A DNA stretch of 64,000 nt from Runella defluvii (lineage in GTDB: Bacteria; Bacteroidota; Bacteroidia; Cytophagales; Spirosomataceae). The notes under the pieces were generated by a model. It saw nothing but the letters and a program-made list of their open reading frames with translations, was not told the DNA's origin and ran no database searches. Positions 40,910 to 53,704 of the stretch are shown one piece after another. The translations under genes and the position numbers were made by a program. Positions within the stretch are counted from its first letter, which is position 1. Each line of letters opens with the position of its first letter. Location of the stretch: contig NZ_JACIBY010000006.1 in the NCBI RefSeq assembly GCF_014195535.1, positions 310,001-374,000 on the forward strand, written 5' to 3'.

Positions 40910-42115
40910 ATGGGAAACAAATTACGCAACAAGCTCGCGGAGTTTAAAGACGCTGCGATTGCTAAAGAGAAAGGAATCTACCCTTATTTCAGACCGATTG
41001 AGTCGGGGCAGGATACTGAAGTTCTCATCAACGGTAAACCCGTTTTAATGTTTGGTTCTAATTCTTACTTAGGACTAACCAACCACCCCTACATCATTGA
41101 GGCTTCTCAAAAAGCCGCTGAAAAGTACGGTACAGGCTGTGCGGGTTCACGGTTTTTGAACGGTACGCTCGACATTCACATCGAGCTAGAACGCCGACTC
41201 GCCGCCTATGTAGGAAAAGAGGCTGCCATCTTGTTCAGCACGGGTTATCAGGCCAACTTGGGGGCGCTTTCTAGTCTGACAGGTCGCCATGATTACATTT
41301 TGTTGGACGAAATGAACCACGCCTCCATCATCGACGGAAGTCGGTTGTCGTTTTCCAAGGTCATTAAGTACGCCCACAATGACATGGAAGACCTTCGCAA
41401 AAAACTTAGTCTCCTGCCTGATGAAGCCGTGAAGCTCATTGCCACCGACGGAATTTTTAGCATGGAAGGTGACATCGTAAACCTACCCGCACTCAACAAA
41501 GTAGCCGCTGAGTTTGATGCGTCTGTGCTGGTGGACGATGCCCATAGCTTAGGCGTTATTGGCGAACGCGGAGCGGGAACTGCCTCGCATTTTGGCGAAA
41601 CCGACAACACCGACTTGTTTATGGGTACTTTTAGCAAGTCCTTGGCATCGTTGGGAGGGTTTATTGCCAGCGACAACGAGACCATCGAATACCTCAAACA
41701 CCGTGCGCGTTCGCTCATATTCAGCGCCAGCATGACCCCCGCTACGGCGGCGAGTACGATTGCAGCACTCGACATTATTGAGTCAGAGCCGTTCCACATC
41801 GAGCGTTTGTGGGCCAATACCCGCTATGCCAAAGAATTATTGCTCCTCAGCGGTTTTGATTTAGGCCCAACCGAAAGCCCGATTCTCCCAATCTATATCC
41901 GTGACAACGAAAGCACGTTCCTTATGACCAAGTTTTTACAAGACGAAGGGGTATTTGTCAATCCTGTCGTATCGCCAGCGGTACGCCCCGAAGACACCCT
42001 CATTCGCTTTTCGCTGATGGCCACGCATACCTTCACTCAAATCGAAGAAGCCGTGGATAAATTGGCACGAGTTGCCCAAAAAGTTTGTCCTGAAGCGCTA
42101 AAGCAACATATATGA
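40910..42115 (+). CDS. spt: serine palmitoyltransferase (alpha-oxoamine synthase)
   Basis: 401-residue PLP enzyme of the alpha-oxoamine synthase family. Visible residues: '[12 protein letters not shown]' (49-60), '[12 protein letters not shown]', His137 in 'DEMNHAS' stacking on PLP, '[10 protein letters not shown]' (Asp209-Asp210, His212), and the Schiff-base lysine Lys243 in [12 protein letters not shown]. The family includes AONS/BioF and KBL; I prefer serine palmitoyltransferase because the next two genes match the ceramide-making partners. It condenses serine with a fatty acyl thioester to 3-ketosphinganine. Its stop overlaps the next start (ATGA), so the genes are translationally coupled. 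Confidence 0.88.
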
Positions 42116-43233
42116 TTCGTATAGCCCCCGTAGAGTCTAGCAAAGAGGTAGGAAAATTCATTGATTTTCCGCACGATTTGTATAAAAACGACCCCAATTA
42201 CGTACCCGAACTCTTTATTGCCCAACGTGATATGCTTTCTCCCAAGAAGCATCCATTCCACGAACACGGGCAGGTAAAGCTGTTTTTAGCCTATAAAGAC
42301 AACCACATTGTGGGTCGAATTGCGGCAATTGTCAATGGCAATCACATCGCATTTACGGGGAAACAAGACGGTTTCTTTGGTTTTTTTGATTGCATCAACG
42401 ACCAAGAAGTCGCCCAAGCACTGATTGATACCGCAGTAAATCACCTGAAAGAGAAAGGATTAACCCGCCTTATTGGCCCCGTTAACTTTTCTACCAACGA
42501 CCCTTCGGGGGTGTTAGTTGAGGGTTTTGAACGCCCACCCATCGTGATGATGACCTACAACGCGCCCTACTACGACACGTTGTTGTCAAGCATAGGGTTG
42601 CGAAAAATGACCGATTTGCTGGCCTACGAGTTGGAAGTAAGCGAGTCTAACGACCGCTCTATCAAACTGTTGGAGGTATTGCAAAGCCGTTTGAAAAACA
42701 AAGGAATCACCATTCGTCAGGTAAATCTCAAAGACTTCAAACAAGAGGCCGTTAAGATTCGTGAAGTATATAACAAGGCTTGGGACAAAAACTTAGGGTT
42801 TGTCCCCATGACCGACAAAGAGTTTGACTTTTTGGCCAACGATTTGAAGTTATTGCTCGACCCTAGGTTCTGCCTCGTTGCCGAAAAAGACGGTGAATTT
42901 ATCGGCTTTGCCCTCGGCGTCCCAGATCTCAACCAAATCTTGATTAAAATCAAACGAGGTCGGTTGTTTCCAACGGGGATTTTCAAGTTGCTGACCCAAC
43001 GCAAAAACATTACTCGTTTGCGCGTATTGGCGCTTGGCGTTCTTGAAAACTACCGCAAACTGGGTATCGAAGCCTGTTTGTACGGTACCATCATTAAAAA
43101 TACGTACGGAACAAAAATTACGGGTGGCGAATGTTCGTGGATGCTTGAAGACAATTACCTCATGAACCACGCCATCGAACAAATCAACGCAAAATTATAC
43201 AAGCGGTATCGGTTGTACGAAAAAGAACTATGA
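42112..43233 (+). CDS. GNAT-like acyltransferase, probable bacterial ceramide synthase
   Basis: 373 residues with GNAT-type folds. The N-terminal motif '[19 protein letters not shown]' and '[21 protein letters not shown]' and the central '[18 protein letters not shown]' are typical of a widespread acyl-CoA N-acyltransferase-like family. In Caulobacter a GNAT-like protein (bCerS) N-acylates the sphingoid base, and position here between spt and a CerR-like reductase supports the same job. It overlaps both neighbours by ATGA. The enzyme is not related to eukaryotic ceramide synthases. Specificity for fatty acyl chain is not readable. Confidence 0.78.
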
Positions 43234-44225
43234 GCGGGCGCGTATTGATAACAGGGGCAAGCGGGTTTATTGGATACCACTTGATTGAGGCAGCCCAAAA
43301 AGCGGGATTGGAAGTCCATGCCGCAGTGCGCCCATCGAGCGACGTGTCGCACCTTGCACCCTTAGCTCCTGTTTTTGTGTATCCCGATTACCGTTCAACC
43401 GACGCGCTCCGGTCGTTTTTGGAGAAGGGTCAATACCAGTACATTATCCACTCAGCAGGTGCAACGCGCGCCAAAGACAGTGCCACGTACAACCTCATCA
43501 ACGCCGAATATACCCGTCGGTTGGCCGAAGCAGCCTGCCAAATCAGTCAACCGTTGGAGCGGTTTGTGTTTGTGAGCAGTTTGGCCGCCCTTGGGCCGTT
43601 ATCGTACGCTGAAAAACAACCAATTACCGAGAATACGCCACCAATGCCTGTCACCGATTACGGGAAAAGCAAGTTGTTGGCCGAGCACTATTTAGCTGAA
43701 ATAAAAGGGTTGCGAACCTCCATCATTCGCCCGACGGCAGTCTATGGCCCCCGCGAAAAAGATGTGTTTATCCTTTTCAAAACCCTCAACAGCGGCATCG
43801 ACGCCTACATTGGCCGTGGTGCGCAACGTTTCAGCTTTGTTTACGTAAAGGATTTAGCAGATGCAACGGTAAAAGCAGCGCTTCACAACAGCACCGCCAA
43901 CCATGCCTTCAACGTATCGGACGGAGGCGCATACAACCGTTATGAACTGGCCGAGATTTTCAACGCATGGAGTGGCAAAAAGCCCGTTCGGATTCATATT
44001 CCTTTGGGGTTGATGAAAATTGTCGCAACGACCTTGGAAGTATGCTATACATTTTCAAAAAATACGCCCGTCATTAACCGCGAAAAACTCAAAGAATTGA
44101 CGGCTCAAAACTGGTTTTGTAGCATCGACGCCGCCCAATCGCAACTCGGCTACCAACCAAAATATGACTTAAAAAGAGGGCTTCTCGAAACCCTAACGTG
44201 GTATAAAGAAAACCAATGGCTCTGA
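43230..44225 (+). CDS. NAD-dependent epimerase/dehydratase family reductase, CerR-like
   Basis: 331-residue extended SDR. Rossmann motif GASGFIG at residues 9-15, 'HSAGATRAKD', 'VFVSSLAALGP' with the catalytic Ser, and YGKSK holding the Tyr/Lys pair. Sugar epimerase and dihydroflavonol reductase relatives exist. By context it should be the ceramide-pathway keto-reductase equivalent to CerR, which reduces the 3-keto group after N-acylation in bacteria. The start overlaps the acyltransferase stop; a DUF5686 gene follows 74 bp later. Confidence 0.82.
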   Translation: MSGRVLITGASGFIGYHLIEAAQKAGLEVHAAVRPSSDVSHLAPLAPVFVYPDYRSTDALRSFLEKGQYQYIIHSAGATRAKDSATYNLINAEYTRRLAEAACQISQPLERFVFVSSLAALGPLSYAEKQPITENTPPMPVTDYGKSKLLAEHYLAEIKGLRTSIIRPTAVYGPREKDVFILFKTLNSGIDAYIGRGAQRFSFVYVKDLADATVKAALHNSTANHAFNVSDGGAYNRYELAEIFNAWSGKKPVRIHIPLGLMKIVATTLEVCYTFSKNTPVINREKLKELTAQNWFCSIDAAQSQLGYQPKYDLKRGLLETLTWYKENQWL

Positions 44226-53064: not shown

Positions 53065-53065
53065 T

Positions 53066-53704
53066 ATGCCAAAGCTTTTTATTTCAAATTCAACGGAATC
53101 TACCCGAATGTTCAAGAGCGACTTGTTGGAAGCTCTTTCCAAAGTACACTACAGTGTTCCGTTATTTATCTTTATTCCCGTTATTTTATTTTTTACTTGG
53201 CAATCTCTCTTTGAAGGCCAAGTAGGTGGGCTGGCTTTTTTAAGCTATTACGCTGGTGGATTGTTTATTTGGACGTTTACGGAGTATTTTCTGCACCGTT
53301 TTGTGTTCCATTTCACGCCTAAAGGGAAATTGATGGAACGTATCCATTTCATTTTCCACGGAGTTCATCACGACTACCCCAACGATGCCAAACGTTTGGT
53401 AATGCCTCCGTCGGTCAGTATCCCGTTGGCAACGGCGTTTTATCTGCTCTTCACTGTTTTTATGACCAAATACGTTGTAGCTGCTTTCTTTGCAGGCTTT
53501 ATTACGGGGTACTTGTTCTATGACATGACACATTACGCTTTACATCATGCCAACTTTAAAGCTGGTTTTTGGAAGAAACTAAAGAAACACCACATGCTGC
53601 ACCACTATGCCGAACCCGATAAAGGATACGGCGTTAGTTCGGAGTTGTGGGATAAGCTTTTTAATTCTGATTTTTCGGAACGAAAACATGTAGAAACAAA
53701 ATAG
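53066..53704 (+). CDS. fatty acid 2-hydroxylase / sterol-desaturase superfamily
   Basis: 212 residues, di-iron membrane hydroxylase. Four membrane segments surround the histidine boxes 'EYFLHRFVFH', 'HFIFHGVHHDYP', 'THYALHHANF' and 'KKHHMLHHY'. The pattern and spacing match FA2H/Scs7-type enzymes that add a 2-hydroxyl to the N-acyl chain of ceramide, which fits the spt-containing cluster well. 'RLVMPP' after the second box is also typical of FA2H. It is the last gene before a strong terminator. Confidence 0.88.
   Translation: MPKLFISNSTESTRMFKSDLLEALSKVHYSVPLFIFIPVILFFTWQSLFEGQVGGLAFLSYYAGGLFIWTFTEYFLHRFVFHFTPKGKLMERIHFIFHGVHHDYPNDAKRLVMPPSVSIPLATAFYLLFTVFMTKYVVAAFFAGFITGYLFYDMTHYALHHANFKAGFWKKLKKHHMLHHYAEPDKGYGVSSELWDKLFNSDFSERKHVETK

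Follow-up and report, generated by a model that had tools for sequence, protein, structure and literature searches.

Closest to the locus described here are two sets of known genes. The Spt/bCerS/CerR pathway provides the ceramide core in a defined order (PMC11087976). For the headgroup, Heaver et al. 2022 proposed that an NTP transferase, a CDP-alcohol transferase and a HAD protein form an alternative inositol-lipid route, in which diacylglycerol (DAG) would be the first acceptor, and left the functions of these genes unconfirmed (PMC9246714). The same paper cites Sphingobacterium spiritivorum as a producer of ceramide phosphoryl-myo-inositol. We analyzed a 64,000-nucleotide stretch (the window) of the 8.0-Mb genome of Runella defluvii, in which both sets lie side by side as twelve open reading frames (ORFs) on the + strand (40910-53704). 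The locus is a combination of known parts that is new as such and, as predicted from the sequences, it probably makes inositol phosphoceramide from salvaged inositol by a CDP-inositol (Kennedy-like) route. The first-pass annotation of this DNA had noted the twelve genes and two overlaps of four bases (Spt/bCerS and bCerS/CerR), which the ORFs bear out. It had also reported headgroup chemistry, and the module is indeed present; however, inositol is the most likely head, and the annotation had not named the predicted inositol kinase.

The ceramide core and the headgroup module

The Spt score against NF047600 (Table 1), computed over the whole protein, exceeds the curated cut-off of 640 bits, the next model reaching 393. 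An identity as BioF was considered and rejected, the bioF model giving only 377 bits for a cut-off of 426. Spt scores above the cut-off in eight of 148 genomes of the order, five of which are the Runella/Dyadobacter cluster genomes. Five further Spt loci were inspected (L229, L230, L231, L232, with 621 bits just below the cut-off, and L233, whose Spt is cut by the contig end). A bCerS-like gene adjoins Spt in four of them, the fifth being cut by the contig, and CerR adjoins both in L229, L231 and L232, the three where the contig reaches. Beside 21 sub-cut-off relatives of Spt (L208-L228, BioF/KBL-like, at most 1.5 kb of flank per side), no bCerS was found and a weak CerR-like match occurs in three cases. 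The labels bCerS-like and CerR-like come from protein family and position beside Spt. Judged by sequence, the first three genes are a true Bacteroidota Spt and its regular partners; the core proposed in the first-pass annotation thus stands, and the case that would have undone it, a BioF-like protein among unrelated neighbors, failed. In L229, Spt, bCerS, CerR and the gene of an inositol-phosphate synthase (MIPS), then after a gap DUF5686, lie on one contig (1400-10000) of a genome with 7% contamination.

When spt neighborhoods were compared across the order, the gene order from Spt to DUF4833 was found in all four other cluster genomes of the sample (G010, G073, G127 and G139), and synteny of the cluster extends over Runella, Dyadobacter and Parapedobacter luteus. 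The neighborhood is thus not due to chance. The gene of a TetR-family regulator ends 149 bases before Spt and is also upstream of it in three of these four genomes, the exception being at L012. The last gene is more variable. The putative hydroxylase matches PF04116, contains the histidine clusters and is homologous to FA2H/Scs7 over most of its length; residues 18-201 match yeast Scs7 (4zr1, E 1.1e-32), and Scs7 sequences are the only ones of solved structure that were matched. This argues for a 2-hydroxylation activity, in line with the FA2H-type assignment of the first-pass annotation. The gene is nevertheless an optional member of the cluster: it is present in six of the nine distinct Runella/Dyadobacter genomes with a visible cluster end, as well as in Parapedobacter, and in the three clusters devoid of it no copy was found elsewhere in the genome (three of the five genomes searched).

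In most of the loci examined, the headgroup module has no Spt in view. Named transferase loci are the best 80 of 511 confirmed candidates, some of them cut by contig ends (L117 and G139 are one genome). Among these 80, the ATP-grasp gene is present in 76, HAD in 74, the NTP transferase in 69, MIPS in 51 and the LPG-synthase-like gene in 22. NTP transferase, ATP-grasp, transferase and HAD genes occur together in 65, of which 42 have MIPS in view, and this conservation suggests that HAD and ATP-grasp belong to the module. In all nine Sphingobacterium loci the module is accompanied by MIPS; in Sphingobacterium multivorum the LPG-synthase-like gene appears split into two frames (L122, 10800-11800). 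Spt is seen in eight loci (L114-L118, L127, L129 and L143). It accompanies the module in Runella/Dyadobacter, in Parapedobacter and in GWE2_42_24, where CerR has no match.

The transferase-like protein of the window shows 96% identity to its counterpart in a Runella metagenome-assembled genome (MAG; L114). In a tree of 70 rows it groups with Runella and Dyadobacter, and the 11 rows of these genera (including one identical pair) form with 11 Sphingobacteriaceae rows one group with a support of 99/100, outside which the long branches fall. At E 1e-10 this transferase is present in only five of 148 genomes of the order, belonging to two of the 79 genera sampled, a sparse distribution that transfer or widespread loss would account for.

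A predicted inositol kinase in genomes lacking MIPS

Among solved structures, the two best matches of the PfkB protein are those of TM0415 (1vk4/5ysp, E about 3e-31), followed by 7e4l (1e-29), a PfkB protein that does not bear the TM0415 label, and then by a match of 1.6e-13. TM0415 of Thermotoga maritima converts myo-inositol and pyrophosphate (PPi) to Ins(1)P, with a Km for inositol of 12 mM that is high enough for the true acceptor to be possibly another compound (Nagata et al. 2018, PMC5931981). Its inositol contacts D11, N78, Q141 and R145, and also K171, are kept in all 11 cluster rows (10 genomes). A profile search of 37 genomes gave 16 matches at 1e-20, one genome being counted twice (G139 and G531), and 15 of these 16 keep all four contacts. 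At L252, Leu replaces the Asn contact and both donor arginines are present. Of the paralogues in the window genome, L197 misses the Asn, Gln and Arg contacts and L198 is aligned at its C-terminal part only. In the donor site of the 11 cluster rows, R229 is replaced by Ala (Thr in one row) and R232 by Cys (A233 and C236 in the window), and the window protein has the motif GCGD, not the RXGRGD of the PPi-dependent subclass. Because the pyrophosphate-donor arginines are replaced and GCGD is present, ATP is expected rather than PPi, and the protein is predicted to be an ATP-dependent inositol kinase. The S89 position is occupied by Gln, as in homologue No. 7 of PMC5931981, which forms a product other than Ins(1)P; the window enzyme might therefore give another isomer of inositol phosphate.

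No match to MIPS (PF07994) was found in the window genome, nor in the ten distinct Runella/Dyadobacter genomes, although the absence is weak for L114, a 4.9-Mb MAG. In a first survey MIPS was present in 29 of 49 genomes: in all 17 that carry the close transferase subfamily outside the family of the window, in 12 of 27 with a distant one, and in none of the five from the family of the window. In 12 of the 17 it lies within the same fetched locus, and three of the 17 (G482, G177 and G278) have no other module gene near the transferase. A second survey found MIPS in four of 12 genomes, Parapedobacter and three Sphingobacterium, and did not detect it in six Runella/Dyadobacter, Olivibacter and Parabacteroides distasonis. 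The PfkB kinase shows the reverse distribution: among 33 genomes with the close subfamily it was found (E <= 1e-100) in 11 of 12 without MIPS versus three of 21 with MIPS (G482, G486 and G534), a tally that leaves out weaker matches in G267 and G177, as well as four Spt-only genomes devoid of PfkB. When G482, G177 and G278 are removed, the counts become 11 of 12 versus two of 18. In Parabacteroides distasonis, which has the module and no detected MIPS, PfkB lies elsewhere in the genome, and in G486, another Bacteroidota genome, PfkB and MIPS are adjacent in divergent orientation (L255, 6456-8916).

Proposed route and alternative products

The families of the first three proteins suggest that Spt, bCerS and CerR would yield dihydroceramide from serine. 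The PfkB kinase would phosphorylate imported myo-inositol with ATP and so compensate for the missing MIPS, as indicated by its residues, the gene loss and its context. The NTP transferase would then form CDP-inositol from inositol phosphate and CTP, from which the transferase-like protein would move phosphoinositol to ceramide. The LPG-synthase-like protein may possibly flip the product, DUF5686 and DUF4833 are perhaps envelope proteins, and the Scs7-like enzyme would 2-hydroxylate the N-acyl chain where its gene is present. The succession of activation, transfer and flipping genes read by the first-pass annotation is supported.

Individual members of the module are consistent with these roles to various degrees. 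The transferase-like protein matches PF01066 with 46.2 bits (cut-off 22), and its profile matches AF2299, IPCT-DIPPS, the PIP synthase PIPS and choline/ethanolamine transferases such as CEPT1 in the PDB; H152 and Q155 are invariant in the 22 rows of its subfamily. HAD proteins usually have a DxD motif; in the 22 rows D8, G10 and T12 are invariant and the second Asp is missing. The ATP-grasp protein has no Pfam match at 0.001. Its model (pLDDT 91.7) has a RimK/LysX/Ddl-like fold, and the RimK model matches all 45 ATP-grasp rows, always below its cut-off. ITPK, an inositol phosphate kinase, is the best PDB match of the profile and is absent from the 50 fold matches listed, and both a ligase and an inositol kinase are open candidates for its role. 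The LPG_synthase_TM protein matches PF03706, and the model of DUF4833 (pLDDT 83) gave no convincing fold match.

A number of points weigh against the salvage route. The inverse distribution of PfkB and MIPS, which speaks for the route, has a Fisher p of about 2e-5 in both tallies, uncorrected for kinship, but stands for at best three lineages because ten of the 12 MIPS-less genomes are one clade. Parapedobacter carries MIPS and PfkB together, so that PfkB is not simply a swap for MIPS, and in Olivibacter sitiensis the module is present with neither of them found. Import of inositol is an assumed step, and a literature search gave no lipid paper with Runella or Dyadobacter among the 15 of 2,628 matches listed. 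The profile of the NTP transferase (A4) does match the IPCTs 4jd0, 2xme and 4mnd, but these are outscored by sugar-phosphate nucleotidyltransferases. Finally, the full DxxDGxxAR...GxxxDxxxD motif is not present in the transferase-like protein: D92, D95 and D113 are invariant, whereas the fourth Asp, the usual base in CDP-alcohol phosphotransferases, gives way to Gly117 in the window. Gly occupies this position in 20 of 22 rows, with Asp only in L030 and L032, and we therefore call the protein transferase-like.

These points leave room for other products. A polyol or sugar other than inositol, phosphorylated by PfkB and activated by the NTP transferase, is an unlikely head, though still worth considering. 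The ranking of the NTP transferase matches, the varied substrates of COG1213-type enzymes (PMC12275187) and the lack of detectable MIPS in Runella/Dyadobacter would agree with this, but the four TM0415 contacts are conserved throughout the cluster rows and three of them are missing from the paralogue L197 of the same genome, and in Parapedobacter luteus MIPS lies inside the same cluster. That the module makes phosphatidylinositol on a DAG acceptor and merely adjoins the ceramide genes appears rather improbable. DAG is the first acceptor in the proposal of Heaver et al. (PMC9246714), and Spt accompanies few of the best 80 of 511 loci; however, Spt lies with the module in GWE2_42_24 and Parapedobacter as well as in Runella/Dyadobacter, and the whole core joins MIPS in L229. 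That the module yields a soluble di-inositol phosphate like that of hyperthermophiles, with no lipid head, is very improbable: the NTP transferase and the transferase-like protein weakly match the bifunctional IPCT/DIPPS model NF041135 and 4mnd, but the fixed linkage with a lipid core, the LPG-synthase-like membrane protein and sometimes a hydroxylase argue against it.

Inositol phosphoceramide from salvaged inositol is thus the product that we favor. A doubtful extension of this route would have PfkB feed the Gly117 transferase in MIPS-less bacteria and the ATP-grasp enzyme modify the head, by amino-acid ligation or phosphorylation, to give a 2-hydroxylated inositol sphingolipid not described so far. 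The locus offers a compact and genetically testable gene set for bacterial inositol sphingolipid synthesis. It points to the probable substrate of a PfkB kinase, suggests how bacteria with the module could dispense with MIPS, and draws attention to the ATP-grasp enzyme in a module whose function is unproven in gut Bacteroidota too.

Organization of the locus and comparison with described systems

Beyond the two overlaps, the gaps from CerR to the hydroxylase are, in order, 74, 95, 157, 56, 1, 78, 100, 10 and 1 bases (Table 1). The hairpin after the last gene reaches -26.8 kcal/mol (z -6.3), a value that none of 200 shuffles equalled. The 157-base gap contains several copies of the palindrome GACCTTCC...GGAAGGTC, and this exact pattern has no further match elsewhere in the genome. 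Stretches in this gap and in the 100-base gap fold better than shuffles (0, 6 and 3 of 200 equally good). Since two gaps hold palindromic repeats, transcription of the twelve genes as one unit is only plausible; the strong terminator of the first-pass annotation is retained, the uninterrupted run up to it less firmly. Just past the cluster, on the minus strand (54561-61265), lies a gene for a repetitive 2234-residue protein, probably a surface protein.

Table 1. Features of the Runella defluvii locus and its borders (window coordinates)
Feature	Coordinates	Strand	Evidence
TetR-family regulator	40119..40760	+	PF00440
Spt, serine palmitoyltransferase	40910..42115	+	NF047600, 723 bits
bCerS-like GNAT acyltransferase	42112..43233	+	PF00583
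CerR-like NAD-dependent reductase (SDR/Epimerase)	43230..44225	+	PF01370
DUF5686 protein with CarbopepD_reg_2 domain	44300..46855	+	PF18939, PF13715
NTP transferase, predicted CTP:inositol-phosphate cytidylyltransferase (IPCT)	46951..47655	+	PF00483, weak NF041135
Palindromic repeats, NTP transferase/ATP-grasp intergenic region	47655..47795		
ATP-grasp enzyme	47813..48694	+	
CDP-alcohol phosphotransferase-like, predicted CDP-inositol:ceramide transferase	48751..49683	+	PF01066
LPG_synthase_TM/HpnL-like membrane protein, possible flippase	49685..50686	+	PF03706; TIGR03476 below cut-off
HAD-family protein	50765..51463	+	PF00702; motif DxGGT
19-nt palindrome, three copies, at HAD gene end and before PfkB	51454..51535		
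PfkB kinase, predicted ATP-dependent myo-inositol kinase	51564..52484	+	TM0415 similarity, kept contacts, GCGD
DUF4833 protein	52495..53064	+	PF16117
FA2H/Scs7-type fatty acid 2-hydroxylase (predicted)	53066..53704	+	PF04116; 4zr1
Intrinsic terminator	about 53718..53759	+	Hairpin and T run

The first-pass annotation had regarded a single locus of this kind as not known to be described as a unit. This holds for the combination but not for its parts, as Heaver et al. (PMC9246714) had already put forward the headgroup half as an alternative inositol-lipid route, and loci with core, head and transport genes, though of other chemistry, are reported from Proteobacteria (PMC11324152). With the alternative cluster of Bacteroides vulgatus/Prevotella (PMC9246714), the window locus shares the NTP transferase, the CDP-alcohol transferase and HAD, compared by family. 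The neighbors of that cluster include LPG-synthase-like and carboxypeptidase-regulatory genes, the latter perhaps equivalent to DUF5686 of the window. In contrast, the window locus misses MIPS and adds PfkB, DUF4833, Spt-bCerS-CerR and, in some genomes, the Scs7-like hydroxylase; the word ATP-grasp is absent from the main text of PMC9246714.

The Caulobacter-type ceramide/CPG2 cluster (PMC11324152, PMC12275187) similarly unites core and head genes at a single locus and has activation by the cytidylyltransferase CpgD, a CDP-alcohol-transferase domain protein and a hydroxylated acyl chain. It differs by its glycerate head, its ceramide kinase and AcpR/AasR, families not found in a search of the twelve window proteins, and by a hydroxylase of the DesA family encoded outside the spt region. 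The BT1522-1526 operon has the same predicted product, inositol phosphoceramide, but reaches it through MIPS and a PI(P) synthase, together with a phosphatase and an AUR1-like synthase (PMC8791184). Finally, the inositol kinases TM0415 and TK MI3K (PMC5931981) resemble the window PfkB in most of the sequence and in the contact residues, whereas the window enzyme has GCGD and neither R229 nor R232.

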